Assembly (NCBI RefSeq): GCF_021631985.1
Contig: NZ_CP070225.1
Span: forward strand, 2,418,001-2,482,000
From: Sandaracinus amylolyticus
GTDB lineage: Bacteria; Myxococcota_A; Polyangia; Polyangiales; Sandaracinaceae
DNA: 64,000 nt
Reading direction: 5' to 3'
Shown: piece by piece, positions 6,677 to 49,983 of the stretch
Position numbering within the stretch: position 1 is the stretch's first letter
Layout of the letters: the number at the start of each line of letters is the position of its first letter
Position numbers and translations under genes: made by a program
Notes under the pieces: generated by a model
What the model was told of the DNA's origin: nothing
The model's input: the letters and a program-made list of their open reading frames with translations, nothing else
Database searches by the model: none

Positions 6677-6679
6677 GGC

Positions 6680-33608: not shown

Positions 33609-34364
33609 TCAGTGCATCGGCGGCGCGAAGAGCTGCACCGGCGTCGCGCTCCACTGCGCGCCGCCTGCGGTCCCGCTCAGCGCGTCGCCGCGCTCGACCG
33701 TCGCGGTGTACTCGACTCCATCCAACGAGAACTGCAGCTGCGCGCCCTGCTGCGACCAGCGGTTGCGCTCGCTGATCGCGCCCTGATCCGTCAGCAGCGC
33801 GCCGCCCGCCTCGAAGTGGATCACGCGCTCGCCGCTCGACGTTTGCAGCGTCCACTGCGTGCCCGCGAGGTTGATGCACGTCTCGGCCTGCTGGGTCTCG
33901 TCGGGATGACAGCCGCCGCCGACCTGCATCCGATCGCCGCGCCACTGCCACGTCTCGCCGCGGACGTTCTGCGCGTCGCCGACGATCACGGTGCCGTTCG
34001 ACACGTCCGCGCGGTACTCGACGAACCGGTTCTGCAGGAACATCCGGATCGTGTTGCCGTCGACGTACCACTCGTCGGTCGCGGGCGACGCGGCCGGATG
34101 ATCGGTCGAGCGCAGTCGGTTCGCCGCGAGCAGCTCGACGTCGAACGCGTACTCGCCGCCCGGCGCCATCGCGGTGAGGTGCCAGCGACTCCCGGTCGGG
34201 TTCCAGCACACGCGACCGAGCCGCAGCTCACCCGTCGTCTGGCATGGCTCCACCGCGCGCGCCTGCGGCGTCGTCCCACCAGCACCGGCTTGAGTGCCGC
34301 CGCCACATGCGGCGAGCGCAGCAGTGAGGAGACCAGCGGCGAAAGTGCGTGTCGGTCCGCGCAT
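33609..34364 (-). CDS. Lipoprotein with two similar beta domains
   Basis: A 251-residue lipoprotein with signal MRGPTRTFAAGLLTAALAAC. Two domains of about 95 residues share a plan: each starts at Cys (CWNPTGSRWHLTAMAPGGEY and CINLAGTQWTLQTSSGERV), has a turn rich in Asn/Asp and ends in a W-rich strand (TWQWRGDRMQV; QWSATPVQLF). The repeat suggests an internal duplication of a small beta-barrel domain. A tract GGGTQAGAGGTTPQ links them to the membrane anchor. No enzymatic motif is visible. It is convergent with the SCO4402-like gene at 33218. About 120 bp separates it from the purF stop, occupied by hairpin element 34403-34471. Confidence 0.75.
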   Translation of the reverse strand: MRGPTRTFAAGLLTAALAACGGGTQAGAGGTTPQARAVEPCQTTGELRLGRVCWNPTGSRWHLTAMAPGGEYAFDVELLAANRLRSTDHPAASPATDEWYVDGNTIRMFLQNRFVEYRADVSNGTVIVGDAQNVRGETWQWRGDRMQVGGGCHPDETQQAETCINLAGTQWTLQTSSGERVIHFEAGGALLTDQGAISERNRWSQQGAQLQFSLDGVEYTATVERGDALSGTAGGAQWSATPVQLFAPPMH

Positions 34365-34402
34365 ATGCGCGCGACTCTAGCAGAACGTGATGATCAACAT
34401 CG

Positions 34403-34471
34403 GCTCGCCCGCTCCGGGCCCTCCCGTCCGCGTGCTCCGCACGCTCCCGTACGGGCCCTGCACCGGCGAGC
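34403..34471 (-). repeat. GC-rich hairpin element after purF (no T-run)
   Basis: On the minus strand the element begins a few bases after the purF stop as GCCGGAGTGCTCGCCGG, folds as a long nested stem closed by GCTCG (34467-34471) and CGAGC (34403-34407), and ends GGGCGAGCCGATG. It shares ends with the elements at 39104, 44848 and 54730 but has lost the T-run (GATGTTGAT). Confidence 0.6.
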
Positions 34472-34483
34472 ACTCCGGCTGAT

Positions 34484-35896
34484 TCAAACGCTCGCGAGCG
34501 GCAGCGAGCGCTTGCCGGTGCCGTTCTCGGTCGCGAAGGGCACGGGATAGTCGCCGCTGAAGCACGCGTCGCAGAAGCCCTCGCGACCCGGGCCCTCGCC
34601 GCGCACCGCGCGATGCAGGCCGTCGATCGAGAGATAGCCGACCGTGTCGCTCGTCACGTACTTCGCGACCTCGGCGGGGCTGTGGCTCGCCGCGATCAGC
34701 TCGTTCCGCGAGGGCGTGTCGATGCCGTAGTAACAAGGCCAGCGCGTCGGCGGCGAGCTGATGCGCAGGTGCACTTCCTTCGCGCCCGCGTCGCGCAGCA
34801 TCTTCACGATCTTGCGGCTCGTCGTGCCGCGCACGATCGAGTCGTCGATCACCGCGACGCGCTTGCCCTCGAGCACCGCGCGCACCGGCGAGAGCTTGAG
34901 CTTCACGCCGAAGTGTCGGATCGACTGGCTCGGCTCGATGAACGTGCGGCCCACGTAGTGGCTGCGGATCAGCCCGAGCTCGAACGGGATCCCGAGCCGC
35001 CCCGCGTAGCCGAGCGCCGACGCGACGCCGCTGTCGGGCACCGGGATCACCACGTCGACGTCGGCCGGGCACTCCTCCGCGAGGATCGCGCCGAGCCGCT
35101 TGCGCGTCTCGTACACGCTGATGCCGTTCAGCTTCGAGTCGGGCCGCGCGAAGTAGACGTACTCGAAGATGCACATGCGCTGCGCGCGCGTCTCGAACGG
35201 ACGCAGCGAGCGCACGCCCTCGCGATCCGCGACGATCATCTCGCCGGGCTCGAGGTCGCGCACGTACTCGGCGCCGATCAGCTCGAACGCCGAGGGCTCG
35301 CTCGCGACGACCGTCGCGCCGGGCAGGCCGGGGTACGCGCTGAGCGTGCCGAGGCAGAGCGGGCGGAACCCGTGCGGGTCGCGCACTGCGATGAGCTCGT
35401 CGGTCGTGAGGAACACGATCGAGTAGGCGCCCTGCATCTGCTTGAGCGCGTCGCTCACGCGACCGACCGTGGTGGCCTCGCGGCTGCGCGCGATGAGGTG
35501 CACCAGCACCTCGGTGTCGCTCGAGCTGTTGAAGATCGAGCCCGCGGCCTCGAGGCGCGCCCGCACTTCCTCGAAGTTCGTGAAGTTGCCGTTGTGCCCG
35601 ACCGCGAGCGAGCCCATCGCGTAGTCCACCGCGATCGGCTGCGCGTTCTTGAGCCCACCGCCGCCGGCGGTGGAGTAGCGCACGTGCCCGATCGCGCGGT
35701 CGCCCGGCAGCGCCTCGAGCACCGGCTGCGAGAACGCGTCCTGCACGAGCCCGAGCGACTTGTGCGCGAAGAGGCGCCCGCCGTCGGTGCTGACGATGCC
35801 TGCGCTCTCCTGGCCGCGATGCTGCAGGGCATGGAGCCCGAGGTAGGTCAGGTTGGACGCCTGCGGGGCGCCCCAGATGCCGACGACGCCGCACAT
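34484..35896 (-). CDS. purF: Amidophosphoribosyltransferase PurF
   Basis: A 470-residue enzyme that makes phosphoribosylamine from PRPP and glutamine, the first step of purine synthesis. The N-terminal nucleophile Cys follows Met (MCGVVGIWG), then [23 protein letters not shown] and [12 protein letters not shown] of the glutaminase domain. The PRPP-binding domain has [18 protein letters not shown] and a [10 protein letters not shown] segment; [18 protein letters not shown] is also typical. The ATG at 35896 is fixed by the catalytic Cys; a 60-residue upstream extension in frame is spurious. Hairpin element 34403-34471 lies directly downstream. Confidence 0.97.
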
Positions 35897-36060
35897 GGGC
35901 CCGGCTTGTAGCGCCGCACCTGGACCATGTCGAGGGGTGGAGCGTGGCGCGCGGAGCGCTCCGCGCTCCTTCTTTCGGAACGCCAAATGTTCTAACAATT
36001 TCGTGTGCTTCGCGTGACCCGAATCGAAATCCGCCGGCCACGTACCGCACGGAGGACCCG

Positions 36061-37788
36061 ATGCGCTTCCGCTCACCGTTGTCTCTGCTCACCGCGCTCG
36101 TGCTCGCCCTCACGACGGCGTGCACCGGCCTGCTCGGCGAGGCGGCCGCAGGGCCCGACGGCGTGGGCCCCGGGCCGGGCCCAGGCGATGGCCCGCGCGA
36201 TCCAGGGGGCAACCCGATCGACCCGAGCGATCCCGTCGATCCGGGCGAGCCCATCGTGTGCGAGGGCGAGGCGCCGGGCCGTCGCTCGCTGCGCTTGCTG
36301 ACGCGCGACGAGTACCGCGCGACGGTCGCGGATCTGCTCGGCATCGCCGCGCCCGACGTCGACTCGTTCCCGGTCGAGACCTCGGTGCGCGGCTACGACA
36401 ACGAGTCGAACGCGCAGCTCGTCACCGGACGCCACGCCGATGCGTACGCGGGCGCGGCCGAGACGCTGGTCGCGACGGTCGATCCCGCGCGCTTCGCCGC
36501 GTGCGATCTCTCGGCGACGTCGTGCCAGCGGCAGCTCGTCGAGGCGTTCGGCCGTCGCGCGTTCCGCCGTCCGCTCGCGAGCGACGAGGTCGATCGTTAC
36601 GTCGCGCTCTTCGCGAGCGAGCTGATCGTCGGTGATGCGCGCATCGGCGCGCGGCTCGCGATGGAGGCGATGCTCGCGTCGCCGTCGTTCCTCTACCGCA
36701 GCGAGGTCGGCGAGGCGCAGGCGGACGGCACGTTCGCGCTCACCTCGTGGGAGATCGCGACCGCGCTCTCCTATCTCTTCTGGGGCACGATGCCCGACGA
36801 CGCGCTCTTCGCGCTCGCGGAGAGCGACTCGCTGCGCGACACCGCGATCATCGAGCGCGAGGCGCGCCGCATGCTCGACGATCCGCGCAGCGAGGACGCG
36901 GTCGCTGCGTTCGTCTCGCGCTGGCTCGGCACCACCCGCCTGCTCGGCACGAACCGCGACGCGACGCTCTTCCCGGGGTTCACCGACACGGTGCGCGAGT
37001 CGATGCTCGCCGAGGAGCGCGCGTTCGTGCGCCACGTGATGTACGAGGGCACCGGGCGGTTCAGCGAGCTCTTCAGCGCCGACTACCTGATGGTCGACGC
37101 GAACCTGCGCACCTACTACGGGCTCGGTGCCGGCGGCAGCGCGGCGTTCGAGCGCGTGAGCGCGCCGCCGGAGCGCGTCGGCGGTCTGCTCGTGATGGGC
37201 AGCGTCATGGCGAGCCACGCGCACTCGAACGAGAGCTCGCCGATCCGTCGCGGTCTCTTCGTGCGCGATCGCCTGCTCTGCCAGGACCTCCCGCCGCCTC
37301 CCGCGAACGCCGACACCACGCCGCCGGGGCTCGATCCGACGCTCACGACGCGCGAGCGGTTCCGCCGCCACACCGACGATCCGGTGTGCTCGTCGTGCCA
37401 CCAGTTCATCGACGGCGTGGGCTTTCCCTTCGAGCGCTTCGACGCGGTCGGCGCGTATCGCGAGCAGGAGAACGGGCTCGCGATCGACACGAGCGGCGAG
37501 CTGATCGGCGTCGAGACGCTGAGCGACGGCGCGCGCCTCGCGCTGTCGAGCCCGCAGGATCTCGCGGCGCAGATCTCGGAGAGCGACACCGCGCGCGACT
37601 GCATGGCGCGCCAGTGGTGGCGCTGGGCGCGCGGCACGATCGAGCGCGACGCGGGCGATGCGTGCTCGGTGCGCGCGCTCGCGACGCGCTTCGACGAGAG
37701 CGGTGGTGACCTGCGCGAGCTGATGGTGGCGGTCGTGACCCAGCCCTCGTTCCGGATCCGTCGTGCGGCAGAGGAGGTGGCGCCGTGA
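36061..37788 (+). CDS. DUF1592/DUF1588/DUF1585 exported protein with CxxCH motif
   Basis: A 575-residue exported lipoprotein (signal [21 protein letters not shown]). A Gly/Pro-rich linker ([15 protein letters not shown]) leads to DUF1587-like [22 protein letters not shown]1595-like [29 protein letters not shown]1592-like [20 protein letters not shown]1588-like [20 protein letters not shown] and DUF1585 near the end. [16 protein letters not shown] holds a CxxCH. These domains occur in planctomycete and myxobacterial surface proteins thought to carry cytochrome-like redox functions. GGAGG lies 5 bases before the ATG. Coupled to a DUF1552 gene at 37785. Confidence 0.88.
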
Positions 37789-39089
37789 TGAAGCGTCGTT
37801 CGTTCCTGAAGGGCCTCGCGGCGGGTGCGGCGCTCGCGCCGATCGGGATCCACACGTTCGCGCGCAGCGCGCGCGCGGCGGGCGAGGGCAGGGCGCTCTT
37901 CGTGTACATCCCCGACGGCTGCATCCCGGATCGCTGGCATCCGCGCGGCAGCTCGGGGAGCAGCACGTTCACGCTGCCCGAGATGAGCGCGCCGCTCGAG
38001 CGCGTCCGGCAGCACCTCACGTTCCTCGATGGGCTCGACATGTACGCGGGCGGGCCGACGCACGAGGGCGGCTGCGCGAAGGTGCTCACCGGCACCGATC
38101 CGACGTCGCTCGACGTGTTCCTCGGCCAGACGCTGCGCGAGGGCGTGCCGCACCCGAGCGTGCACCTCGGCGTGGGCTCGAACTTCGAGAACGGCAGCGG
38201 CAGCTTCTCGCGCCTGATGGGCACCGAGGTGAAGGCCGACGACGATCCGCTCAACGCGTTCTCGCGTTTGTTCGGTGGACGCGAGATGACCGACACGAGC
38301 GCGGAGGAGCTGCGCATCCGACGTCGTCGCAGCGTGCTCGACGCGATCAGCGGCGACCTGACCGCGCTGCGCGGCAGGCTCGGGAGCGTGGAGCGCACCA
38401 AGCTCGACGTGCACACCGAGTCGCTGCGCGAGCTCGAGCGCCGACTGATGGCGCCGGTGGGCGGCAGCTGCAGCGACGTCGCGTTCAACGCGGGGGGCTA
38501 TCGCAACGTCGAGACCGACTACTACCCGAAGACCTACCACAAGGAAGACAACTTCCTGACCGTCGGGCGGCTGCAGCAGGACCTCGCGGTGCTCTCGCTG
38601 GGCTGCGGGATCACGCGGGTCGCGTCGATCATGTGGTCGCACCCGGTGAGCCCCACGCACGTGCGCGACTCCACGGCGACCCTGGGCAACCACGACGCGT
38701 CGCACTACGGCAACGCCGACAGCGACACGGCGCGCCAGTTCGTGGCACTGAAGCGCTGGTTCGCCGATCGCTTCGCGGAGCTGATCGAGAAGCTCGCGTC
38801 CACGCCCGACGGCGAAGGCACGCTGCTCGACTCGACCGTCGTGATGCTGTGCAGCGAGCTCGGCGACTCGAACGCGCACGATCACAAGCGCGTGCCCTTC
38901 GTGGTCGCGGGCGGCGCGGGCGTGCGGCTGCGCGGCAATCGCTTCATCGACTATCGCGGCGGGCACGGCGGCGAGAACGAGGCGCACTCCAAGCTGCTGG
39001 TGTCGATCGCGCAGGCGGTCGGCGTGCCGGTCGAGACCTATGGGTACTCGGGGCACGGCAGCGGCGGGCTCGAGGGGCTCTTGACCTGA
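37785..39089 (+). CDS. DUF1552 exported protein
   Basis: A 434-residue protein of the DUF1552 family. The N-terminus carries a Tat signal (KRRSFLKGLAAGAALAP), then FVYIPDGCIPDRWHPRG, LTFLDGLDMYAGGPTHEGG, NHDASHYGN and LCSELGDSNAHDHKRVPFVVAGG, a phosphatase/sulfatase-like set of metal-binding motifs. Members are usually paired with DUF1592 proteins, as here: the start (GTG 37785 or ATG 37788) overlaps the upstream stop and AGGAGG precedes it by 7 bases. The pair is exported, probably folded in the cytoplasm first. Downstream is terminator element 39104-39144. Confidence 0.9.
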   Translation: MMKRRSFLKGLAAGAALAPIGIHTFARSARAAGEGRALFVYIPDGCIPDRWHPRGSSGSSTFTLPEMSAPLERVRQHLTFLDGLDMYAGGPTHEGGCAKVLTGTDPTSLDVFLGQTLREGVPHPSVHLGVGSNFENGSGSFSRLMGTEVKADDDPLNAFSRLFGGREMTDTSAEELRIRRRRSVLDAISGDLTALRGRLGSVERTKLDVHTESLRELERRLMAPVGGSCSDVAFNAGGYRNVETDYYPKTYHKEDNFLTVGRLQQDLAVLSLGCGITRVASIMWSHPVSPTHVRDSTATLGNHDASHYGNADSDTARQFVALKRWFADRFAELIEKLASTPDGEGTLLDSTVVMLCSELGDSNAHDHKRVPFVVAGGAGVRLRGNRFIDYRGGHGGENEAHSKLLVSIAQAVGVPVETYGYSGHGSGGLEGLLT

Positions 39090-39103
39090 GTCCCTGCCGG
39101 AGT

Positions 39104-39144
39104 GCTCGTCCCGCCGGTAGGGACCGGCGGGCGAGCCGATTTTT
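39104..39144 (+). terminator. Intrinsic terminator, member of the GCTCG hairpin family
   Basis: GCTCG-T-CCCGCCGG (39104-39117) pairs with CCGGCGGG-CGAGC (39124-39136), with one bulged T and a 6-base loop, followed by CGATTTTT (T-run 39140-39144). It begins 14 bp after the DUF1552 stop. Same conserved ends as elements at 44848 and 54730. Confidence 0.8.
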
Positions 39145-39187
39145 CGACAGTCCTCGAGCCCGACGCGCGCGTGGTAGACCCGCGCGC

Positions 39188-40525
39188 GTGGGGGACGAGG
39201 AGCTCGAGATCGATCTCGCCAAGCGCCGCATCCGGCGCGGCGGCGAGGACGTCGTCGTGCAGCGGCGCGTCTTCGATCTGATCACCTATCTGATGCAGGA
39301 GCGCGGGCGCGCGGTGTCACGCGCCGAGCTCCTGCGGCACGTGTGGAACGACGTGCACGTGAGCGAGGCGTCGCTGAACCAAGCGGTGCGCGCCGCGCGG
39401 CGTGCGATCGGCGACGATCCGGTCGAACCTCGCCGCATCCTCACGCTGCGCGGGTACGGCTATCGGTGGATCGACGAGCCGCGCGAGGTGGCGCGCGCTC
39501 CGAGCTGCCACGACGAGACGGTCGAGCGCGACGACGCGCGCGGCAGCGAAGAGGGGGCGGTGCTCTTCGTGGTCGCAGGCGCGGACGGAGCCGACGTCAC
39601 GCCGAGCGCCCATGCGCTCGAGGGGATCGACGAGATCGACGTGGTGCGCACCGCGCGCTCGGGCGTCGTGCGCGAGGGACGCACGCTCGTGCTCGGGGTC
39701 GCGAGCGCGCTGCTCTCGCGACGTCACGCGCGGATCGTCCGGCGACCCGGTGGGCGCTTCGTGCTGGAGGACGGCGGATCGAAGAACGGGACGCGCCTCG
39801 ACGGTCGGCGCGTGGAGCGCGTGGAGCTCCGCGACGGCGACTGGATCGGCTGCGGCCCGCTGCTGCTGCGGTTCCGCAGCGGCATGGGCGCGCCGCTCGA
39901 GGAGCGCTCGCTCCCGACGATCTCGCCGGCGCTCGCGCGCGACGTGGATGCCGCGGCGCGCGTGCTCGAGGACGGCGTCGCGGTGCTCGTGGTGGCGAGC
40001 GAGGGGACCGACACCGCGCGGCTCGCGCGCACGCTGGCGACGCTCGCGGGACGTCGCGGCGCCTTCGTGTCGTGGCGAGCGCGCGGCGCGGACGACGACG
40101 ACGTGCAGCTCGCGGAGCGACTCGACGCGGCCCGCGGGGGCACGCTGCACGTCACGCACGTGGACGCGCTCGATCCGCGCGTGATCGCGCGCCTGGCGAG
40201 CGCGATCGAGCCTCGCTCCGAGGGCGAGCCACCGCTCGATGTCGCGGTCGTCGCGAGCGCCGCGGCGGATGACGGGCTCCTCGCCGCGGCGCTCGGCGCG
40301 CACGCGCTGCGTGTGCCTCTGCTCGCCGATCGTCGCGAGGACCTCGGCCTCTTGCTCGCGGTGCACGCACCCGGCGTCGTGTGGTCGCCCGCGGCGCTCG
40401 ATCGGCTCGCGATGCATCGCTGGCCCGGAGACGAGCGCGAGCTCGCGGCGACGATCCGCGCTGCGAGGGCGCTCGCGACGCGCGGTGTGATCGAGGTCGA
40501 CCACCTGCCCGCGTCGCTGCGGTGA
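39188..40525 (+). CDS. Hybrid regulator: winged helix, FHA and decayed NtrC-type ATPase
   Basis: A 445-residue protein. Residues 1-95 form an OmpR/PhoB-type winged helix (EIDLAKRRIRRGGEDVVVQ, VSRAELLRHVWNDVHVSEA, LNQAVRAARRAIG, TLRGYGYRW). Residues about 150-250 form an FHA domain (LLSRRHARIVRRPGGRFVLED, GGSKNGTRLDGRRVE). The rest aligns with the C-terminal half of sigma-54 activator ATPases: GGTLHVTHVDALDP, LADRREDLGLLLA, MHRWPGDERELAATIRAARALA, HLPASLR. The usual Walker A (here VVASEGTDTARLAR) and the GAFTGA loop are not seen, so nucleotide hydrolysis is doubtful. The FHA domain suggests control by Ser/Thr kinases, of which several are nearby. Confidence 0.8.
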   Translation: MGDEELEIDLAKRRIRRGGEDVVVQRRVFDLITYLMQERGRAVSRAELLRHVWNDVHVSEASLNQAVRAARRAIGDDPVEPRRILTLRGYGYRWIDEPREVARAPSCHDETVERDDARGSEEGAVLFVVAGADGADVTPSAHALEGIDEIDVVRTARSGVVREGRTLVLGVASALLSRRHARIVRRPGGRFVLEDGGSKNGTRLDGRRVERVELRDGDWIGCGPLLLRFRSGMGAPLEERSLPTISPALARDVDAAARVLEDGVAVLVVASEGTDTARLARTLATLAGRRGAFVSWRARGADDDDVQLAERLDAARGGTLHVTHVDALDPRVIARLASAIEPRSEGEPPLDVAVVASAAADDGLLAAALGAHALRVPLLADRREDLGLLLAVHAPGVVWSPAALDRLAMHRWPGDERELAATIRAARALATRGVIEVDHLPASLR

Positions 40526-40558
40526 CGAGGCCCGAGCGAGCACGTCGCTCGGGCCTCG
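40526..40558. terminator. Perfect 14-bp bidirectional hairpin
   Basis: CGAGGCCCGAGCGA (40526-40539) and TCGCTCGGGCCTCG (40545-40558) form a perfect stem with a 5-base loop between two convergent genes. It lies immediately after the plus-strand stop and 6 bp before the minus-strand stop. No T-run, but placement suits a bidirectional terminator. Confidence 0.65.
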
Positions 40559-40563
40559 GTGGA

Positions 40564-41052
40564 TCACAACGAGACGTCGGTGCAGGTGCCCTCGGGGATG
40601 AACCAGTTCGCGAAGCGCTCGTAGAAGAACTCGCCGACCTCGGTGGTCCGGCTGAGATCGACGTCGGTGACGCGCGGGCTCGTGATGCACACGCGGAACG
40701 CGCCGGGGCGCAGGGGCGTCACCGCCACGTTCCCGCGCACCTCGACCGTGCCGTGGGCGTCGCGGCGGATGTCGCGCTTCAGCGTCACGCCGAAGCGCAG
40801 CGTCGCCACGCAGCCACTCACCGAGAGCGACTCGACGCCGTGGATGACGAGGTCCTTGCGGCGCGTGAGGCGCACCTGGGTGCCCGCGACCCTCGCATCG
40901 ATCCCGCCGAGGATCAGGTCGTGGCCGATGTCGGCGATCGCTTGGATGGTCTCGCACGAGAGCGACTGGGCGGACGCGCGCTGCGCGCCGCTCGCGAGGA
41001 CGCCCGCGCAGATCGCGAGCACGAGGAAGGCCGAGCGGAAGATCGAGCTCAT
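40564..41052 (-). CDS. Secreted hypothetical protein
   Basis: A 162-residue exported protein with a signal peptide (SIFRSAFLVLAICAGVLASG, cleavage near AQRASAQ). The mature part begins SLSCETIQAIADIGHDL, has strands (VRLTRRKDLVIHGV, ATLRFGVTLKRDI) and four cysteines placed for two disulfides, ending IPEGTCTDVSL. No family is recognised. An AGGAG ribosome site stands 9 bases before ATG 41052. It faces the kinase-hydrolase gene with about 200 bp between, where GCGATCAC is repeated 11 bp apart (41135 and 41146). Confidence 0.7.
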   Translation of the reverse strand: MSSIFRSAFLVLAICAGVLASGAQRASAQSLSCETIQAIADIGHDLILGGIDARVAGTQVRLTRRKDLVIHGVESLSVSGCVATLRFGVTLKRDIRRDAHGTVEVRGNVAVTPLRPGAFRVCITSPRVTDVDLSRTTEVGEFFYERFANWFIPEGTCTDVSL

Positions 41053-41251
41053 CGGTGTTTCTCCTGTCGAGTGACGAGCGCGCTTGTACGTGCGGCGAGC
41101 GCGCCGCGGAGGTGCGCAGCGCGCGATTCACGGAGCGATCACCGGGCGATCACGCACCGCTCTGCGACCGTTCGACGTCGCCACAAAGCCACGCTCGGGA
41201 CGGTGTCGCGCATCGATCTCGCGCGGCGTGGTAACAGCGCGCGCGAGGGGC

Positions 41252-43129
41252 ATGGACATCGACCAGGCGCGGTGCGTCGCGGACTTCGCGCGCGCAGCTC
41301 GGGACGGATCGCCGATGATCGTGGGCGACTATCGCTTGCTGCGGCCGCTCGGGCGCGGGGGCATGGCGGAGGTGTGGCTGGGACGCCATTCGCTCACCGG
41401 CGGAAGCGCGGCGGTGAAGGTGTTGCGCGATGGCGCCGGCGCGACCGCGCGCGCATCGCTGGCGCGAGAGCGACGGGCGCTCGCACGCCTGCACCACCCG
41501 AGCATCGTCGCGCTGTTCGACGGAGGGCCCGATCACCTCGTCACGTCGTTCGTGGACGGGACCGATCTCGCACGACGGATGCGCGCGCCGGTGTCGGCCG
41601 CGGAGGCGCTCGGGATCGCGCGGGCGATCGCGCTCGCGCTCGATCACGCGCATCGCCGCGGCGTGGTGCATCGCGACGTGAAGCCGTCGAACGTGCTGAT
41701 CGACGTGCGCGGCGACGCGTTCCTCGGCGACTTCGGCGTCGCCTCGATCGACGGTGACCAGGCCGACGCGGTGGGCACCCCCGCGTTCGCGGCGCCCGAG
41801 CAGCGCCGGGGCGCACCGGTCGACGGCGCCGCCGATCAGTTCGCGCTCGCACGCACGGTGCTCGCAATGTGGCTCGGCGCGCCCGATGCGCTCGACGCGG
41901 TGCGCGATCGCGCGCTGCACGACGTGCTCTCGCGTGCGCTCGACGCCGATCCGCGCCGTCGTTTCTCCTCGTGCGCGGAGCTCGCCGACGCGCTGGGATC
42001 GCTGGGAGATCGCGAGCGCGAGGTCGCGACGCGCGCGCCGTCGCGTCGCGGTCTCGCGAGCTTCGCGTGGGCGAGCGCCGCGGAGCGGCGGGAGTCGTCG
42101 ATCGTCGAGCGGGTCGATCATCGCGTGCGCGCGCTCGCTGCGGCGGGGGCGCTCGATCGGGCAGCGACCGAGCGATTCCTGGCGCGCTCGGGCTACGCGG
42201 ACCTCGGGTTCTCGATCCACGCGCGCACCGAGCGGCTCGGGCCGCTCGATCGCCCCGATGCGCTCGCGCGTGTGGAGCGCATCGTGGTGCCGCTCCACGG
42301 GCTCTGGACCGATCGCGAGACCTGGCGCGAGCTCGCGCCGCGCATCGCGCGCATGAACGCGACGGGGCTCGTGATCACCCCGGATCTCCTCGGGTTCGGC
42401 GCATCGCCGCTGGTCGACGAAGCGCCGTCCGTCGAGGTGATCGGTCCCCGCGCGACGTTCGAGACGGTGCGTGCGTGGCTCGCGCTGCTGGGCCTCGGCG
42501 AGGTGCCGACGACCTACGTCGCGTACTCGTACATGTCGACCGCGATCCTCGAGCTCGGCGACGACGCGCTGCGCGCGCACGAGTCCGCGGTCGTGCTCGC
42601 GCCCAGCATCCCGTTCTTCGACGCGTCGATCCGGGCACAGCTGCGCGCGCTCCGGCTCGTGGCGCACCTCGGCGTGATCCACGTCGAGTCCTATCGCGCC
42701 CTCGTGCGATGGCTCGGTGAGAACCTTCCTGCGTACGGTGTGCTCTCGCCCGCCGATCGCGAGCGCATGATCGCGATGGCGCGCGCGGTGCCCCCGCTGC
42801 GCCAAGCGCGCTTCGCCGACGCGATGCTCGCTGCGCGCGCGCCTCGCACCCACGAGCGCGACCGCAGCGTGGTCGCGGTCACGCCCGACGACCCGGCCTT
42901 TCCGGCCGTGCGACGCGCGCCCGAGCTCGAGCGCCTCGGCTACCACGCGCCCCGCGTGGTCCACCTCACGTTCGGCGCGCACCATCCACATCTTCCGAGC
43001 GCGACGCACCCCGAGTGGAACGCGCGCAACGTGCACGAGCTCGCGGATCTCGTCGATCAGCTGCGGAGCTTCGTCGATCGCCCCGCGCCCTCGCTCTCGA
43101 CCACCCTGACCGCCCGGGGGCCGTGGTAG
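41252..43129 (+). CDS. Ser/Thr protein kinase fused to an alpha/beta-hydrolase-like domain
   Basis: A 625-residue cytosolic protein. The kinase domain (about 22-260) is complete: RPLGRGGMAEVWLG, AAVKVLRDG, GVVHRDVKPSNVLI, FLGDFGVAS, GTPAFAAPEQRRG. A linker (ERRESSIVERVDHRVRALA) leads to an alpha/beta-hydrolase-like region from about residue 340: RIVVPLHGLWTDRETWRELAP, VITPDLLGFGASP, TYVAYSYMSTAIL, LAPSIPFFDA and VVHLTFGAHHPHLPS with a late His. The nucleophile elbow reads YSYMS, without the usual Gly residues, so catalysis is uncertain. No transmembrane segment is present. A trmY-like gene follows 9 bp downstream. Confidence 0.88.
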   Translation: MDIDQARCVADFARAARDGSPMIVGDYRLLRPLGRGGMAEVWLGRHSLTGGSAAVKVLRDGAGATARASLARERRALARLHHPSIVALFDGGPDHLVTSFVDGTDLARRMRAPVSAAEALGIARAIALALDHAHRRGVVHRDVKPSNVLIDVRGDAFLGDFGVASIDGDQADAVGTPAFAAPEQRRGAPVDGAADQFALARTVLAMWLGAPDALDAVRDRALHDVLSRALDADPRRRFSSCAELADALGSLGDREREVATRAPSRRGLASFAWASAAERRESSIVERVDHRVRALAAAGALDRAATERFLARSGYADLGFSIHARTERLGPLDRPDALARVERIVVPLHGLWTDRETWRELAPRIARMNATGLVITPDLLGFGASPLVDEAPSVEVIGPRATFETVRAWLALLGLGEVPTTYVAYSYMSTAILELGDDALRAHESAVVLAPSIPFFDASIRAQLRALRLVAHLGVIHVESYRALVRWLGENLPAYGVLSPADRERMIAMARAVPPLRQARFADAMLAARAPRTHERDRSVVAVTPDDPAFPAVRRAPELERLGYHAPRVVHLTFGAHHPHLPSATHPEWNARNVHELADLVDQLRSFVDRPAPSLSTTLTARGPW

Positions 43130-43138
43130 GAACGCGCC

Positions 43139-43726
43139 GTGCGGCGCTGGGTCGTGATCGGGCGGACTGCGACGGCGTCGCCCGAGTTCTCGCTGATCGA
43201 TCTGCCGGGCTCGAGCGGGCGGCTCGACGTGCTCGTGCGCTGTGTGCGGGCGGCGCTGCTCGTCTCGAACGGAGTCCGGCGCGACACGATCGTCGATCTC
43301 GTGCTCCTCGGCGGACGGCGCGCGCCGCGCGTGGTCCGCTTCGACGGGCGCGTCGCGCGCTACGTGCGGCCGGGCGAGCGTTACGTCGCGACCGTGATCC
43401 AGAAGGCGCTCGCGCACGAGCCCGAAGGGCCCGGATTCACCGCGCTCCGCAACGGGATCTCGATCGCGAACGGCGGGCTCGACGTGGTGCTCTCGGATCT
43501 CGGCGACGTCCCGCGCGTCGTGCTCGAGCAGCACGGGACCGACGTCCGCGCCGCGCGCCTCGATAGCGGCGATCTCGCGATCTTCGTGGGCGATCACCTC
43601 GGCCTCGACGATGCGGCGCGCGCCGCGATCGAGCCCTGCACGCCGATCTCGATCGGTCCGGTGAGCGTGCACGCCGACGACGCGATCGCCGTGATGAGCA
43701 ACGAGCTCGATCGGCGCGCGGTGTGA
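43139..43726 (+). CDS. trmY: TrmY-like tRNA (pseudouridine(54)-N1)-methyltransferase
   Basis: A 195-residue SPOUT-class methyltransferase. The N-terminus RRWVVIGRTATASPEFSL, IDLPGSSGRLDVLVRCVRAA and RYVRPGERYVATVIQKAL, and the C-terminal IGPVSVHADDAIAVMSNELD, follow TrmY, a family best known in archaea that methylates pseudouridine 54 in the T-loop. The knotted fold would use FVGDHLGLDD in SAM binding. GTG 43139 starts directly at the conserved residues and the family length is matched. It sits between the kinase fusion and a HupE-like gene (15 bp downstream) with no neighbour in tRNA modification. The assignment is by motif, not search. Confidence 0.8.
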   Translation: MRRWVVIGRTATASPEFSLIDLPGSSGRLDVLVRCVRAALLVSNGVRRDTIVDLVLLGGRRAPRVVRFDGRVARYVRPGERYVATVIQKALAHEPEGPGFTALRNGISIANGGLDVVLSDLGDVPRVVLEQHGTDVRAARLDSGDLAIFVGDHLGLDDAARAAIEPCTPISIGPVSVHADDAIAVMSNELDRRAV

Positions 43727-43741
43727 TCTACCCTCCGCGCG

Positions 43742-44821
43742 ATGTGGCGGCTCGTGCTCCTCGTGATCCTGGCGTGCGCGTCGACGGCGCACGCGCACCG
43801 CGGCTCCGCGAAGTACGTCGTGGTCGAGCGCACGAGCGAGGGCGCCTCGATCGACGTGGAGCTCGAGGTCGTCGACGCCGCGATGGAGCTCGGGCTCGGC
43901 GAGGACGCGCCCGCCTCGGCGGTCCTCGCGCGCGGTGACGATCTCGGTGCGCTCCTCGCGCGTGGGATCACGATCGGCGACGGCGCGGTCGCGTGCACCG
44001 CGGGCGCCGGCGCACCGAGCGAGGTCGAGGGCGAAGACGGCCCGCCGCGCCTCGCGCTCACGATCGACTACGCGTGCCCCGAGGCCGCGGGCGATCTCGT
44101 GCTCCGCGACGACACGATCTTCCCGACCGACGCGCAGCACGAGGCGTTCGTGCGCATCCGCTTCGCCGGGGACACCGACGCGCACGTGCTCCGCGCCGGA
44201 CGCCAGGATGTCGCGCTCGGCGAGCCTCCGTCGACCGTGTCGCTGCTCGGGCGCTTCCTGGTCGAGGGCGTGCTGCACCTCGTCACCGGATACGACCATC
44301 TGCTGTTCTTGCTCTCGCTCGTGCTCACCGCCGGCGGGCTCGCGCTCCGCGAAGGGATGCGGGTCGCGCTGCGCGACGTCGCGATCGTCGTGACCGCGTT
44401 CACGCTCGGCCACAGCGTCACGCTGATCGCCGCGGCGCTCGGGGTGATCGTGCTGCCGTCGCGGCTCGTCGAGAGCGTCATCGCGGCGTCGATCGCGGTG
44501 GTCGCCCTGCTCAACGTGTGGCGGCCCGACGAGCGACGATCGATGCCGTGGCTCGCGCTGGGCTTCGGGCTCGTGCACGGCTTCGGGTTCTCGGGTGTGC
44601 TCGCCGAGCTCGGGCTCCCCGCGCAGGCGCGCGTGCTCTCGCTGCTCGCGTTCAACGTCGGGATCGAGCTCGCGCAGCTCGCGTTCGTCGCGGTGATGCT
44701 CTCGCCGCTCGCGTGGCTCGCAGGCAAGCCGGGCTATCGCACGTGGATCGTGCGCGGCGGATCCATCGCGATCGCGCTGCTCGCGCTGGTCTGGCTCGTC
44801 GAGCGCGCCACCGCACCGTAG
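43742..44821 (+). CDS. HupE/UreJ-like membrane protein
   Basis: A 359-residue protein with signal peptide MWRLVLLVILACASTAHA, a periplasmic N-terminal domain (about residues 20-165) and then six or seven transmembrane helices of HupE/UreJ_2 type. Family signatures are EGVLHLVTGYDHLLFLLSL, TAFTLGHSVTLIAAALG and GFGLVHGFGFSGVLAELGLP with conserved His residues that likely bind metal, plus a final ALLALVWLVERA helix. HupE proteins handle nickel or cobalt in other bacteria; the metal here is unknown. Hairpin terminator 44848-44900 follows. No urease or hydrogenase genes are nearby. Confidence 0.85.
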   Translation: MWRLVLLVILACASTAHAHRGSAKYVVVERTSEGASIDVELEVVDAAMELGLGEDAPASAVLARGDDLGALLARGITIGDGAVACTAGAGAPSEVEGEDGPPRLALTIDYACPEAAGDLVLRDDTIFPTDAQHEAFVRIRFAGDTDAHVLRAGRQDVALGEPPSTVSLLGRFLVEGVLHLVTGYDHLLFLLSLVLTAGGLALREGMRVALRDVAIVVTAFTLGHSVTLIAAALGVIVLPSRLVESVIAASIAVVALLNVWRPDERRSMPWLALGFGLVHGFGFSGVLAELGLPAQARVLSLLAFNVGIELAQLAFVAVMLSPLAWLAGKPGYRTWIVRGGSIAIALLALVWLVERATAP

Positions 44822-44847
44822 ACTCCGCGCGCTCGTCCAGCTGGAGT

Positions 44848-44900
44848 GCTCGCTGGGGCAGGGCTCGCACGGGAGCGTGCGGAGCACGAGCCGATTTTTT
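44848..44900 (+). terminator. Intrinsic terminator, member of the GCTCG hairpin family
   Basis: Outer stem GCTCG (44848-44852) with CGAGC (44887-44891), inner stem CTCGCACG with CGTGC-G-GAG (one bulge), and a 6-base T-run at 44895-44900. It begins 27 bp after the stop of the HupE-like gene. Less conserved than 39104 and 54730, but has the same GGAGTGCTCG start and GAGCCGATTTT end. Confidence 0.75.
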
Positions 44901-44928
44901 CTGGAGACTCTCTCAGGAGGTCGCGCGC

Positions 44929-45105
44929 ATGGCGGTCTGCAAGACGTGTGGCGAAGAGGTCGAGGAGCTCGTCGCGGTGAAGGTCGGCGGCAAGACCAAG
45001 ACGATGTGCGAGGACTGCGCCGATCGCGCGCGTGAAGAGGGCGAGGTCGCCGAGGCCAGCGAGCGCGCGGTGCAGGGCATGATGGAGTACAAGGGCCGGC
45101 GATGA
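44929..45105 (+). CDS. Small zinc-ribbon protein
   Basis: A 58-residue protein with two CxxC knuckles: MAVCKTCGEEVEELVAVKV and TMCEDCADRAREEGEV, typical of single zinc-ribbon units. The rest is an acidic helix (VAEASERAVQGMMEYKGRR). AGGAGG lies 8 bases before the ATG, one of the best ribosome sites in the window, so the gene is probably well translated. It stands alone between the HupE terminator and the short kinase gene; function is unknown. Confidence 0.8.
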   Translation: MAVCKTCGEEVEELVAVKVGGKTKTMCEDCADRAREEGEVAEASERAVQGMMEYKGRR

Positions 45106-45123
45106 CGGGGCCCGCGGCGCGTC

Positions 45124-45155
45124 ACGGTGCGCACCGTCCGTGCGGATCTGCGCAC
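45124..45155. repeat. Palindrome and small stem after the zinc-ribbon gene
   Basis: ACGGTGCGCACCGT (45124-45137) is a perfect 14-bp palindrome, followed by GTGCG (45140-45144) and CGCAC (45151-45155) around a 6-base loop. No T-run. It may be the 3' end structure of the small gene or an operator for the kinase gene at 45227; nothing decides between them. Confidence 0.35.
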
Positions 45156-45226
45156 ACGCGCCGCGATGGTCTCGCGCGATCCGCGGGTGAATCGGCGATG
45201 GCACGCGTGCTGCTGGTGCGGCGCGC

Positions 45227-46090
45227 GTGACCGACGTGATGCTCGCGGGTCGCTACCAACTGCTCGACACCCTCGGTGAGGGCTCGAACGCGGTCGTGTG
45301 GCGCGCGCTCGACAGCGCGTCGGGCAACCTGGTCGCGATCAAGCGGCTGCGTCCCGAGATCGCGCGCGTCGAGGAGTGGCGCGCCCGGCTCCGCCGCGAG
45401 GGGCGCGCGATCGTCACGCTCCGTCATCCCGGCGTCGTCCGCGTGAGCGAGCTGGGCGAGGAGGACGGCGGCGCGCCGTACCTCGTGATGGAGCTGTTCT
45501 ACGGCGAGACGCTCGCGACGCGGCTCGCGCGCGTCGCTCGCCTCGGCGTCGAGGAAGCGCTCGCCATCGCGGTGCCGCTGCTCGATGCGCTGGCGGCGGT
45601 CCACGCGCACGGCCTCGTGCATCGCGACGTGAAGCCCTCGAACGTGATGCTCGTGAAGGAGCTGCGCAGTGATCGCGTCGTGCTCCTCGACTTCGGGCTC
45701 GCGTGCCTGCTCGACGGATCGCAGCGCGTCACGCGCGAAGGCGCGCGCATCGGCACGCCGGTGTACATGAGCCCGGAGCAGGCGCGCGGCGTTCCGCTGA
45801 TCGACGCGCGCGCCGACGTGTGGGCGGTCGGAGGGCTGCTCTACGAGATGCTCGCGGGTCGCGCGCCGTTCCGCGCGAGCGGCGCGCTCGAGGTGCTGCA
45901 CTCGGTGATCGCGAAGCAGCCCGCGCCGCTGCGCGCGGTGGTGCCCGACGTGCCCGCGGCCCTCGACGAGGCGATCACGGTCGCGCTCTCGAAGCGCCCG
46001 CAGGATCGGCACGGGAGCGCGATCGCGATGGCGGTGGCGCTGCGCGCGATCGGTGGCGCGCAGCGCGGGCGCGCGGCGCGCCATCCCTAG
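45227..46090 (+). CDS. Short Ser/Thr protein kinase
   Basis: A 287-residue soluble kinase, a bare catalytic domain with no membrane or sensor part. GEGSNAVVWRA (glycine loop), AIKRLRP (Lys), LVHRDVKPSNVML, VLLDFGLACL, IGTPVYMSPEQARG and DVWAVGGLLYEMLAG are all intact. Without a sensor it is probably activated by another kinase or by an adaptor. The start is GTG 45227. It is tail to tail with a Cys-rich lipoprotein gene, sharing 4 bp (46087-46090). Confidence 0.9.
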   Translation: MTDVMLAGRYQLLDTLGEGSNAVVWRALDSASGNLVAIKRLRPEIARVEEWRARLRREGRAIVTLRHPGVVRVSELGEEDGGAPYLVMELFYGETLATRLARVARLGVEEALAIAVPLLDALAAVHAHGLVHRDVKPSNVMLVKELRSDRVVLLDFGLACLLDGSQRVTREGARIGTPVYMSPEQARGVPLIDARADVWAVGGLLYEMLAGRAPFRASGALEVLHSVIAKQPAPLRAVVPDVPAALDEAITVALSKRPQDRHGSAIAMAVALRAIGGAQRGRAARHP

Positions 46091-47130
46091 GCGCAGAAGC
46101 CGTACTGCACGCCGTCGAGGATGATCGTCGGCGAGGGCGAGACGCAGATCTCGTCGAACGCGCAGCCCTCGTCGGTCGCGACGTGACACCAGCGGCGGCA
46201 CCGCCCGCTCACGCACGCGTGGTTGCGCGCGCAGTCGCCGTCGTCGCTGCAGAGATCGTAGGAGAGCCCGGTGCCGAGCGGGCCGCTGCAATCCGTCAGG
46301 AAGCGCATCGCGCCCTCGCTCTCGCGGAACACGTGGCAGGTCGTCTGGGGCGAGCATCCGGTGCCGTCGATCGGATCACACGAGCGCGTGCACAGCCGCA
46401 CGTCGGTGCGCTCGCCGCCGCTGCCGTCGTCGAGCGTGCCGAGGCAGAGCGAGCCCACACCGCTGCAGTCCGCATCGCTCGTGCAGTAGCGGGTGCACAT
46501 CGGCAGATCGACCGCGGCCTCGCGCGAGTAGTCGATGCACGTATGGCCCGGCGCGCAGCTCGACGGAGACGTGCAGCTCGTGCCCTCGGTGCCGCTGCCC
46601 GCGGTGGCGCACACGCGCGTCGCGCCCGAGTGGTAACAGGCCTGTCCGCCCGCACATCCGCACTGCGGCCCGACGAGCCGGCACGGCGACTCCGAGCACG
46701 TCGACGTCGCGCTGCATCCCGTCGCGCTGCACGTCTGACCCGAGGGGCACATCGCGTCCTGCGGCAGGTACTCGCACGTCCCGGGCTCGACGCAGCGATC
46801 CATCGTGCACGCGACTCCGTCGTCGCACGAGGGCGGCGTGCCCGGCATGCAGCGGTTCAGCTCGCAGCGCTCGACGCCGTTGCACGCGACGCCGTCGGAG
46901 CACTCGTCCGCGGTGCTGCACGGCACCATTCCCGCGTCCTCGGGGCTCGTCGCTGCGTCGCTCGTCGTCGCCGCGTCGACGCCTTGTTGGCCGCCGTCGA
47001 GCCCTGGCGTCGACCCATCGTGGCCGTTGGGTGTCGTCCCGCCTCCTCCGGTCGCGCAGCCTGCTGCGGCGAGCACGAGCGCGATGACGATCGACGAGCA
47101 CGAGACCGAGATCGAACGCACGACGAACAT
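46087..47130 (-). CDS. Cys-rich lipoprotein with repeated disulfide modules
   Basis: A 347-residue lipoprotein with signal ending in VLAAAGC, then a Gly/Asp/Ala linker (HDGSTPGLDGGQQGVDAATT). Five to six Cys-rich modules follow: CSTADECSDGVACNGVERC, CDDGVACTMDRCVEPGTC, CSESPCRLVGPQCGC, CTSPSSCAPGHTC, CTSDADCSGVGSLC and CSDDGDCARNHACVSGRC. The spacing of cysteines resembles EGF-like or Dickkopf-like surface modules. ATG 47130 precedes the signal peptide. Divergent from the PEP-synthase-like gene by about 120 bp. Confidence 0.85.
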   Translation of the reverse strand: MFVVRSISVSCSSIVIALVLAAAGCATGGGGTTPNGHDGSTPGLDGGQQGVDAATTSDAATSPEDAGMVPCSTADECSDGVACNGVERCELNRCMPGTPPSCDDGVACTMDRCVEPGTCEYLPQDAMCPSGQTCSATGCSATSTCSESPCRLVGPQCGCAGGQACYHSGATRVCATAGSGTEGTSCTSPSSCAPGHTCIDYSREAAVDLPMCTRYCTSDADCSGVGSLCLGTLDDGSGGERTDVRLCTRSCDPIDGTGCSPQTTCHVFRESEGAMRFLTDCSGPLGTGLSYDLCSDDGDCARNHACVSGRCRRWCHVATDEGCAFDEICVSPSPTIILDGVQYGFCA

Positions 47131-47253
47131 GGGCTGCCCCCCCGGGAACGTCGATTCCGGACGGTAGTCGACGGGACCGAGGCAATGAACAGACGGCTCG
47201 CGCGAACGTGCGAGAGCACACACCCGGACGCGCGCTACACTCGCGCCTCGCGA

Positions 47254-49983
47254 ATGGGGCCGCACGTCCGACGCATCGAGTCGCTCGTCCCGCGCCGCAC
47301 GCCGGCGTTCGGTGGCAAGGCGAAGAATCTCGCGGCGCTCGCGCGCGCCGGTTTCCCCGTGCCCGCTGCGTACGCCGTCGCAGCCGAGCTCTGTGACGAC
47401 TTCCTGCGCGCGACGCTCGCGCCCGACGAGCAACCTGCCGCGCTGCTCGCTGCGCCGTCGCGCGACGTCACGCCCGAGCGGCTCGCCGACATCGCCGCGC
47501 GCGTGCGACGAGCGCCGCTCACCCGCGCGATCGCGGCCGACGTGCACGCCGCGTTCGCGACGCTGCGCAACGAGGGCGCGCGCGCGATCGCGGTGCGCTC
47601 GTCGTCGCTCCGCGAGGACGAGCAGGCGCGCTCCGCCGCGGGCCTGCACGACACCGTGCTCGGTGTCGATCACGAGGACGCGCTCGACGACGCGCTGCGC
47701 GCGGTGTGGGCCAGCTCGTTCGATCCGCGCGTGCTCGGCTATCTGCGCGCGCTCGGCAGCGCGAGCGCGGAGGCCGGGCTCGGCATGGGCGTGGTGCTGC
47801 AGGCGCTCGTGCCCGCCGACGTCGCGGGCGTGCTCTTCACGGTGAACCCGCTCTCCGCGGATCCCGGCGAGATGGTGATCAACGCGTCGTTCGGCCTCGG
47901 CAAGACCGTGGTCGACGGAAGCGTCTCGCCGGACACGTACCGCGTCGACAAGGCGAGCGGTTGGGTGCGCGATCGCGTGATCGGCGACAAGGCGCGCGCG
48001 ATCCGCTGGGACGACGAGCGAGGTGTCTTCGAGGAGGACGTGCCCGCCGAGGAGCGCGCGCAGGAGTCGCTCTCGGAAGACGTGCTCGACCGCCTGATCG
48101 AGCTCGGCGTGCGCATCGAGGATCACTTCGGCGACGCGCGCGACATCGAGTGGGCCGTCGTCGGTCGCAACGTGTACGTGCTGCAGGCGCGGCCGGTCAC
48201 CGCGATCGCGACTCCGCCCCGGCGCACCAGCTCGCGACGCGCGCGCCGCGCCGATCGTGCGCGCATCGTCTGGTCGAACGTGAACGTCGGCGAGGCGCTG
48301 CCCGGGGTCGCGACGCCGTTCACCTGGTCGGTGCTGAGCGGGTTCAGCGATCGCGGGTTCCGCCGCGCGTTCGGGGCGCTCGGGTGCAGCGTGCCCAAGG
48401 ACGCCGAGCTCGTCGGCAACTTCCGCGGTCGCATCTACCTCAACATGAGCGAGTTCACCGCGATCGCGTCGCAGGTCCCCGGCCTGCGCCCGCGCGTGCT
48501 GCTCTCGCTCGGCGGCGGCGGCGAGATCGATCGCCTCGAGCACGACGTGGAGCGCCGTGGATCCGCGGCGTTCCTCGCGCGGCTGCCGATGACCGCGTCG
48601 CGCTACGTGCGAGAGAACGCGCGGCTCGGCGAGCGCGTCGCGCAGTTCGAGAAGTGGTTCGAGGCGGAGCGCGCGCGCATCGACGGGATCGACTTCCGCG
48701 TGCTGAGCGCGACCGCGCTGCACCGCGTGCTCGGCGAGGTCGAGCGGCTCCTCGATCCCACCGGTGAGGTGCTGCTCAACGTCTACGGCAACCTGCTCGC
48801 GTGCGTGGTCGCGCTGCGCGGGCTCGTCGGCGCGGTCGCGGACAAGGAGCGCGCCGACGCGCTGATGCGCGAGCTGCTCACCGGGCTCGACGACGTCGAC
48901 AGCGCGGCACCGGGGCTGGCGCTCTATCGCATCGCGCGCATCGCGCGCGGCGATCTGCGGGCGCGCGATCACATCCTGCGCACGCCGCCCGCGGAGCTGC
49001 GCATCGCGTCGATCCCCGAGGGCCCGACGCGCCGCGCGCTGATCGACTTCTTCGCGCGCTACGGCGGACGTGGAGCCCGCGAGGCCGAGATCGCGGAACC
49101 GCGCTGGCGTGAGGATCCCACGCTGCCCTTCACGACGCTGCGCCTCCACCTGATGAGCGAGCACGACGAGGGGCCCGAGGAGGTGCAGCAGCGCCAGCAC
49201 GAGGTTCGGGATCGCGCGCAGGCGGAGCTCGAGTCCCTCCTGCCGCTCCCGGTGCGCCTCTCCGGAGGCGCGCTCGCGGTGCGCAAGCTGCTCACGCTGG
49301 TGCAGGACTTCATGCGGCTGCGCGAGCACCTCCGCGGCCACGTCGTCACGGTGCTCGGGCTCTATCGCGAGGTCGTGCTCGACGCGTCGCGACGGCTCGC
49401 GGCGATGGAGCCGGGCTGCGGACCCGACGGCGGGTTCTTCCTCACGGTCGACGAGCTGCACGCGCTGCTCAAGGGCGACGTGGGGCCGGTCTCGGTGCTC
49501 ATCCGTCGCCGTCGCCTGCAGTACGAGCGCGATCGCGCGCTGCCGCCGCCGCCCGACACGTTCGTCGGGTTCCCGCCGCCGGTCGAGGCCGAGGAGCTCC
49601 CCGACGGCGCGCTGCGCGGGCTCGGCGCGTCGACGGGTCGCGTGATCGGCATCGCGCGCGTGATCGAGACCGCGAGCGACGCGACCTCGCTCGCGCCGGG
49701 AGAGGTGCTCGTGGTGCAGCAGGCCGACGTCGGCTGGACCCCGCTCTTCCTCGCGGCGGCGGCGATCGTGACCGATCTCGGCGGGCCGCTCTCGCATGCG
49801 AGCGTGGTCGCGCGGGAGTTCGGCGTACCCGCCGTGGTGAACGTGCGACACGGCACCCGCGTGATCCGCACCGGCGATCGCATCGAGGTCGACGGCGACG
49901 CGGGCACGGTCCGCATCGTCGAGCGCGCGCACGCGACGCGCGATCGCGAGGAGCACGCCCGCGATGCGACCCCGCGGGCGTGA
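47254..49983 (+). CDS. PEP/pyruvate-binding and PEP-utilizing protein (rifampicin phosphotransferase-like)
   Basis: A 909-residue protein laid out like rifampicin phosphotransferase or a short PEP synthase. The ATP-binding domain has [39 protein letters not shown] and [21 protein letters not shown] long central region follows, then a swivelling His domain at the C-terminus with the phospho-His in [21 protein letters not shown] near residue 850. In rifampicin phosphotransferase the middle domain binds the drug and the His domain carries phosphate. Substrate is not proven; central residues diverge. ATG 47254 precedes the conserved start. The next gene overlaps its end by 20 bp. Confidence 0.85.

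Follow-up and report, generated by a model that had tools for sequence, protein, structure and literature searches.

In this work, we describe a hybrid regulatory protein encoded in a 64,000-nucleotide stretch of Sandaracinus amylolyticus DNA (hereafter, the window), in which an N-terminal OmpR-type winged helix and an FHA domain precede the remnant of a sigma-54-activator ATPase. Its domains, fold, motif loss and ancestry are established by computation. Sequence, predicted fold and analogy, taken as a whole, make it fairly probable that this protein would be a transcription factor derived from an FHA-type sigma-54 activator, now independent of sigma-54 and gated by phosphothreonine. On a wider scale, we hold it slightly better than an even proposition that the FHA-type sigma-54 activators of Polyangiales-type bacteria have given rise, on two or more independent occasions, to regulators that are free of sigma-54 and gated by phosphothreonine. 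In such conversions the GAFTGA loop and the Fis-type helix-turn-helix would go, a winged helix would be gained at either end, the ATPase would erode stepwise and the FHA domain would stay, often with a Ser/Thr kinase gene adjoining, which would amount to a repeated exit from sigma-54 control. The single ingredients are known already, and the repeated conversion is the more striking point.

The original prediction, made from the sequence alone, had described the protein as a hybrid of an OmpR-type winged helix, an FHA domain and a decayed sigma-54 activator ATPase, and both Pfam and the predicted fold bear this out. The matches were Trans_reg_C at aa 19-93 (E 4.7e-18), FHA at aa 173-220 (E 1.1e-12) and AAA_lid_14 at aa 399-445 (E 1e-7), all three being far above chance as sequence matches, while the ATPase core gave just a sub-threshold Sigma54_activ_2 match (aa 261-359, E 0.015). 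The ATPase segments said to be kept were located at about aa 382 onwards (RREDLGLLL) and from aa 412 (WPGDERELAATIRAARALA). In both Pfam and the model, the winged helix is followed by a linker and then by the FHA domain, which has the core residues of a phosphothreonine reader (R154, SRRHA and SKNGT). The protein shares the winged helix with OmpR/PhoB response regulators (E as above, Z 13.9) but lacks a receiver domain, for which Pfam gave no match across the 445 aa; likewise, no BTA domain was matched by Pfam beside the winged helix at E <= 1. The GC content per codon position (0.825/0.52/0.904) resembles that of the adjoining genes. The coordinates of all features are collected in Table 1.

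Structure prediction and comparison with the NtrC family, which had been proposed as a check, were carried out with an AlphaFold2 model built on a four-row alignment (mean pLDDT 75.1, pTM 0.52), where the AAA+ core had a pLDDT of 77-92 in most ten-residue blocks and less in a few. The top Foldseek matches in the PDB were the AAA+ domains of FlrC, FleQ, ZraR and PspF (E about 1e-10 to 1e-9), and VIA-align 2 of aa 242-445 gave Z 14-15 to NtrX, FlrC, NtrC1, FleQ and PspF, with Z about 14 for FHA domains and VicR/YycF-type winged helices over the other parts of the protein, thus indicating that the fold is that of an enhancer-binding protein.

Table 1. Positions in the window of the hybrid regulator gene, its parts and the neighbouring features
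Feature	Position	Strand	Remarks
Presence/absence block, 4.0 kb	39090..43131		missing in sister species G001, 6 bp instead
Terminator-like hairpin and T run	39108..39146	+	MFE -33.6 kcal/mol for 39086-39150, z -3.31
Hybrid regulator gene	39188..40525	+	445 aa, GTG start, 446 codons with stop
OmpR-type winged helix, aa 1-97	39188..39478	+	Pfam Trans_reg_C 4.7e-18; VIA-align Z 13.9 to VicR
FHA domain, aa 123-232, with SRRHA and SKNGT	39554..39883	+	Pfam FHA 1.1e-12; Z 14.3
Decayed sigma-54-activator AAA+ core, aa 242-375	39911..40312	+	fold match Z 14-15; motifs gone
P-loop position, ASEGTDTA	39995..40018	+	alignment to relatives
Walker B position, GTLHVTHV, TH replacing DE	40139..40162	+	alignment and motif table
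AAA+ lid, aa 376-445	40313..40522	+	Pfam AAA_lid_14 1e-7
162-aa protein gene, signal-peptide-like start (by eye)	40564..41052	-	no Pfam match; one weak partial G001 match
Ser/Thr protein kinase gene, C-terminal alpha/beta-hydrolase-like region	41252..43129	+	Pfam Pkinase 9.5e-30; start codon inferred

The state of the ATP site was judged from the alignment. At the P-loop, which aligned free of gaps, the hybrid regulator reads ASEGTDTA against GEAGVGKS, GEHGVGKS and GEAGVGKS in three relatives, and in its Walker B (LHVTH) the DE is exchanged for TH. The Arg-finger stretch FRxDLxxR has become DGLLAAA, and the sensor-II-like arginine of WPGDEREL is retained. No G[AS]F[ST]GA motif was found in the protein by pattern or by alignment. 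The claim that Walker A and the GAFTGA loop are missing is thereby confirmed: an intact ATP site was not found, the Walker A and Walker B residues being replaced, nor were homologues found that activate sigma-54, the nearest ones also lacking GAFTGA. The hybrid regulator ends after the AAA+ lid, 26 residues past WPGDEREL, and has no C-terminal Fis-type helix-turn-helix; since the next gene, on the opposite strand, ends at 40564, only 38 bp downstream, there is no space for one hidden by a frameshift. What defines a sigma-54 activator is that it remodels RNA polymerase by means of ATP, and the loss of GAFTGA and of the catalytic motifs, given what is known of the family, rules out the normal activator mechanism for this protein.

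The genome still encodes sigma-54 (PF04552, 1.6e-65) as well as FHA activators with Walker A and GAFTGA (L048 and L050), so the loss of sigma-54 cannot explain the decay, which is rather a local exit from the sigma-54 system. The same persistence of sigma-54 and of intact FHA-type activators, together with the retained AAA+ fold and lid, would suit a protein that still works within that system, as a subunit or antagonist mixing with the intact activators via AAA+ surfaces and tethering them to new DNA sites. We consider this improbable, as the query protein has neither Walker motifs nor an Arg finger (DGLLAAA), and its relatives in genomes G051, G062 and G077 retain the second arginine of the finger alone.

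These relatives came from a profile search at E <= 1e-40 that covered 183 genomes of the order and scored 8 candidates in each, and at least four full-length matches were present among the matches listed: the query itself and the proteins of G051, G062 and G077. In G150 the match is split between two contigs, one piece closing the first and the other opening the second; jointly the pieces span the model, and we infer them to be a single gene. The protein L115 of G180 (5874-6818, a 315-codon stop-to-stop frame) combines a winged helix with FHA and lacks any AAA+ domain, and is perhaps an end point or else an independent fusion. The gene had stood alone in a search of 38 relatives at E <= 1e-20, and its status as an orphan was abandoned when the wider search found these relatives. 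No full-length match to the hybrid was seen in 9 other genomes of its own family, and a sample of 282 genomes of the phylum added no further one. No relatives of the hybrid regulator came from scanning viral_contigs and genome_contigs with a single protein, and an alignment-based scan gave 33 loci, 3 of them full length.

The motif table showed a graded decay. The FHA core (SRxHA and S-x-NGT) is kept in all five hybrids, and a GAFTGA-type motif, seen in 7/7 of the intact activators shown, is present in 0/5 hybrids; the ASTTGA found in the corresponding columns of the G077 protein is not the motif, though by its sequence it may be a relic of it. Residues after the WPG motif number 26-29 in the hybrids vs. 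81-115 in the seven intact activators. Walker A is lost in the query alone of the five. The G051, G062 and G077 proteins have it in full, and their Walker B reads ET, EN and EN, respectively, so that the catalytic glutamate is gone even where the P-loop is kept; of FRxDLxxR, only the second arginine remains in them. In the G150 protein GESGTGKE is retained, as are the sensor-II arginine and both residues of the Arg finger; GAFTGA is lost and Walker B is DQ. Full Walker A sequences as in G051, G062 and G077 (GEAGVGKS, GEHGVGKS) beside a Walker B glutamate replaced by T or N are what one would expect if the AAA+ remnant were a nucleotide-gated switch without hydrolysis, the protein being opened or closed by bound ATP and just tethered by its FHA domain. 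The query, having neither the Lys nor the Ser of the P-loop, would require an unusual site for this, and we regard such a switch as very unlikely.

Still less credence is given to a functionless decaying gene whose frame has stayed open since GC-rich DNA has few stop codons. Such a gene would fit the lack of an orthologue in the 9 other genomes of the family that were searched, the long branch of the query in the FHA-AAA tree and the gap at the syntenic site of G001, but the loss is confined to the ATPase motifs, with the cores of the winged helix and the FHA domain intact. Moreover, identity to the G062 protein is 49% in the winged helix vs. 28% in the P-loop stretch, and the codon-position GC is coding-like.

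FHA-type enhancer-binding proteins of myxobacteria were reportedly described by Jelsbak, Givskov and Kaiser in 2005. The query resembles them in having FHA followed by AAA+, and it nests among them; in the examples studied in this work, unlike in the query, Walker A/B and GAFTGA are retained, a helix-turn-helix sits in a C-terminal tail and there is no winged helix. Our FHA-AAA tree had 60 rows, namely five hybrids, 53 activators (one of which, L101, shows no Walker A by a simple pattern) and two NtrC-type outgroups. Left out of it and of an earlier tree, from 64 FHA-AAA ORFs, were L088 (incomplete end, no Walker A by pattern), L103 (an odd match), L018 (a near-duplicate of L019) and L053, which lacks FHA and was then used as an outgroup; two proteins with a C-terminal winged helix were also omitted from the 60-row tree. 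The five hybrids formed one clade (100/98) within the FHA-type enhancer-binding proteins, surrounded by activators that retain the C-terminal tail and, mostly, GAFTGA, and they did so again (96/84) once proteins with a C-terminal winged helix were added. Within the clade G150 branches first, the query next (99/86) on a long branch (1.57), and then G051 with G062 and G077 (98/92). As far as the aligned motifs tell, the decay series fits this branching order, the least decayed member, G150, coming first, and the P-loop was lost late and in the query protein alone, because its close relatives keep Walker A.

Taken together, descent from an FHA-type sigma-54 activator is well supported by sequence comparison and the modelled fold. 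The suggestions that a sigma-54 activator was repurposed and that DNA binding moved to the N-terminus both draw on the same support: the fold, the better-preserved ATPase of relatives with the same architecture and the nesting within FHA-type activators. The winged helix itself may be of a separate source in the query, as judged from a tree of this domain, from which a duplicate of the query (L152) was removed along with 15 further rows that included 12 Bradyrhizobium and far outgroups. This tree puts the query apart from the other four hybrids; forcing all five into one clade takes 11 log units (p-AU 0.097), so that a single clade is neither rejected nor shown. With a separate source, the winged helix and FHA-AAA would have been joined in two fusions, one in the query lineage and one in the other four hybrids, making the architecture convergent. 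We find this doubtful: both FHA-AAA trees unite the five hybrids, and the winged-helix tree has 35 rows, 100 columns and weak forks.

Furthermore, we collected a second family by a search with an FHA-decayed AAA+ protein from G052 (E <= 1e-20), which matched 22 of the 183 genomes of the order, not all at full length. Twenty proteins were classed, by ORF reconstruction, as FHA, decayed AAA+ and C-terminal winged helix, of which 19 belong to the order and the last (L110, G365) to a different order of the class; among them are L168, L169, L170, L055, L173, L188, L197, L184, L171, L190, L199 and L196. The same winged helix occurs on L191, L192, L194, L175 and L193, where the alignment is limited to that domain; L191 has no FHA or AAA+ motifs and, lacking FHA, is not counted in the 20. 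As in the hybrids, FHA is kept, GAFTGA is lost, the AAA+ domain is eroded and a winged helix is gained, one related to the N-terminal winged helix (hhalign probability 92, E 5e-7). The second family differs in having it at the opposite end and in forming a separate clade. In the motif table, both GAFTGA and the Walker B glutamate are absent from 15/15 of its proteins, and Walker A ranges across these 15 from GETGVGKG to unrecognisable.

The combined tree included 14 of the 20 second-family proteins, 20 of the 53 activators, L189 and L198, and carries a long-branch warning among the second-family proteins. The 14 proteins made one group (98/98), with intact activators between this group and the query clade. 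A shared origin of the query and the second family had been indicated (97/84) by the earlier tree with two such proteins, but this grouping vanished with 14 of them, the separating branches having 100/99, 98/91 and 100/100; the earlier joining was probably long-branch attraction. The tested second-family proteins lie outside the query clade, and thus the swap looks convergent, two separate conversions being the simplest reading of these trees. The result is a graded natural series of proteins that combine a retained phosphothreonine reader with a new DNA-binding domain as the ATP motor is dismantled, and it opens the question of what use a transcription factor may have for a dead AAA+ domain. 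It also points to a possible route by which Ser/Thr kinases could gain direct control of ordinary promoters in kinase-rich bacteria.

No description of the hybrid architecture was found in the titles and abstract starts of the open-licence PubMed Central literature, and neither PMC7159879, examined for FHA and winged-helix text, nor PMC10482370 proved relevant. Activators of the NtrC/TyrR type that lack GAFTGA keep a C-terminal Fis-type helix-turn-helix, unlike the query, and are not known to have an FHA domain or a winged helix. PMC10274813 and PMC6375630 report that enhancer-binding proteins without GAFTGA, exemplified by the NtrC of Caulobacter and Rhodobacter and the TyrR of E. coli, work at sigma-70 promoters, and PMC10274813 adds that Caulobacter NtrC requires ATP binding and hydrolysis. 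So far as these texts describe them, the query is like these proteins in having the AAA+ fold of a sigma-54 activator and no sigma-54 contact loop. In mycobacteria, EmbR contains both an OmpR-type domain and an FHA domain, the latter being required for the interaction with the kinase PknH, a precedent for coupling a Ser/Thr kinase to promoters through these two domains (PMC4601284). According to the same paper, EmbR differs from the query by the BTA domain between the winged helix and FHA, by the C-terminal position of FHA and by having no AAA+ domain.

In view of the GAFTGA-less activators at sigma-70 promoters and of EmbR, we propose a phosphothreonine-gated, sigma-54-independent regulator. 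Its ancestor would have gained the OmpR-type winged helix at the N-terminus. The Fis-type helix-turn-helix at the C-terminus would have been lost, as would the GAFTGA loop and with it the means to remodel the sigma-54 RNA polymerase. Later decay of the P-loop in the query lineage would have turned the AAA+ remnant into a pseudo-ATPase, which would most likely serve as a scaffold through which the protein associates with itself or one domain inhibits another. The FHA domain, itself intact, would dock to a phosphothreonine of a Ser/Thr kinase or of a kinase-phosphorylated partner, thereby switching the binding of the winged helix to DNA at ordinary, presumably sigma-70-type, promoters. The first candidate partner would be the kinase encoded at 41252-43129, which shares a presence/absence block with the hybrid regulator.

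This block was delimited by comparison with G001, whose matches to window positions 33834-39089 (94.7%) and 43132-48359 (89.8%) lie next to each other, just 6 bp apart, thus indicating that 39090-43131 is one presence/absence block. It holds the hybrid regulator, the 162-aa gene on the other strand and the kinase gene, which has HRDVKPSNV at 41669; the alpha/beta-hydrolase-like region of the kinase was seen by eye and had no Pfam match. Homologues of the kinase-hydrolase (E <= 1e-40, 38-40% identity) occur in 4 other genomes of the 183 (G016, G056, G083 and G159). These genomes lack the hybrid, and a conserved kinase partner is therefore not supported; a regex scan, which is a crude test, found no FHA-core motif around the homologues. 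A second catalytic loop of a Ser/Thr kinase lies at 45620 (+) in a 299-codon frame, about 4 kb past the first.

A kinase catalytic loop lies within 2.5 kb of the hybrid in 3/5 cases (the query, G051 and G150), and no kinase motif was found in the flanks covered for the G062 and G077 hybrids, the G077 flank being short on one side. The query genome has at least 153 Pkinase matches, and the chance of such proximity is 0.003 to 0.011 at a density of 153 to 253 kinases a genome, a post hoc figure that assumes the density of this genome to be equal elsewhere. In the second family, a kinase loop on the same strand follows within 1.5 kb for 8/20 genes vs. 5/54 for the activators (Fisher p 0.004, with 7 of the 8 from one genus and the rows not independent).

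Upstream of the hybrid regulator lies a DUF1552 gene, and the terminator-like hairpin stands between the two. Positions 39086-39169 and 44826-44888 are dispersed terminator-like elements with many copies in both genomes of the genus, and both elements carry, by eye, GGAGTGCTCG and GAGCCGATTTTT flanking variable hairpins.
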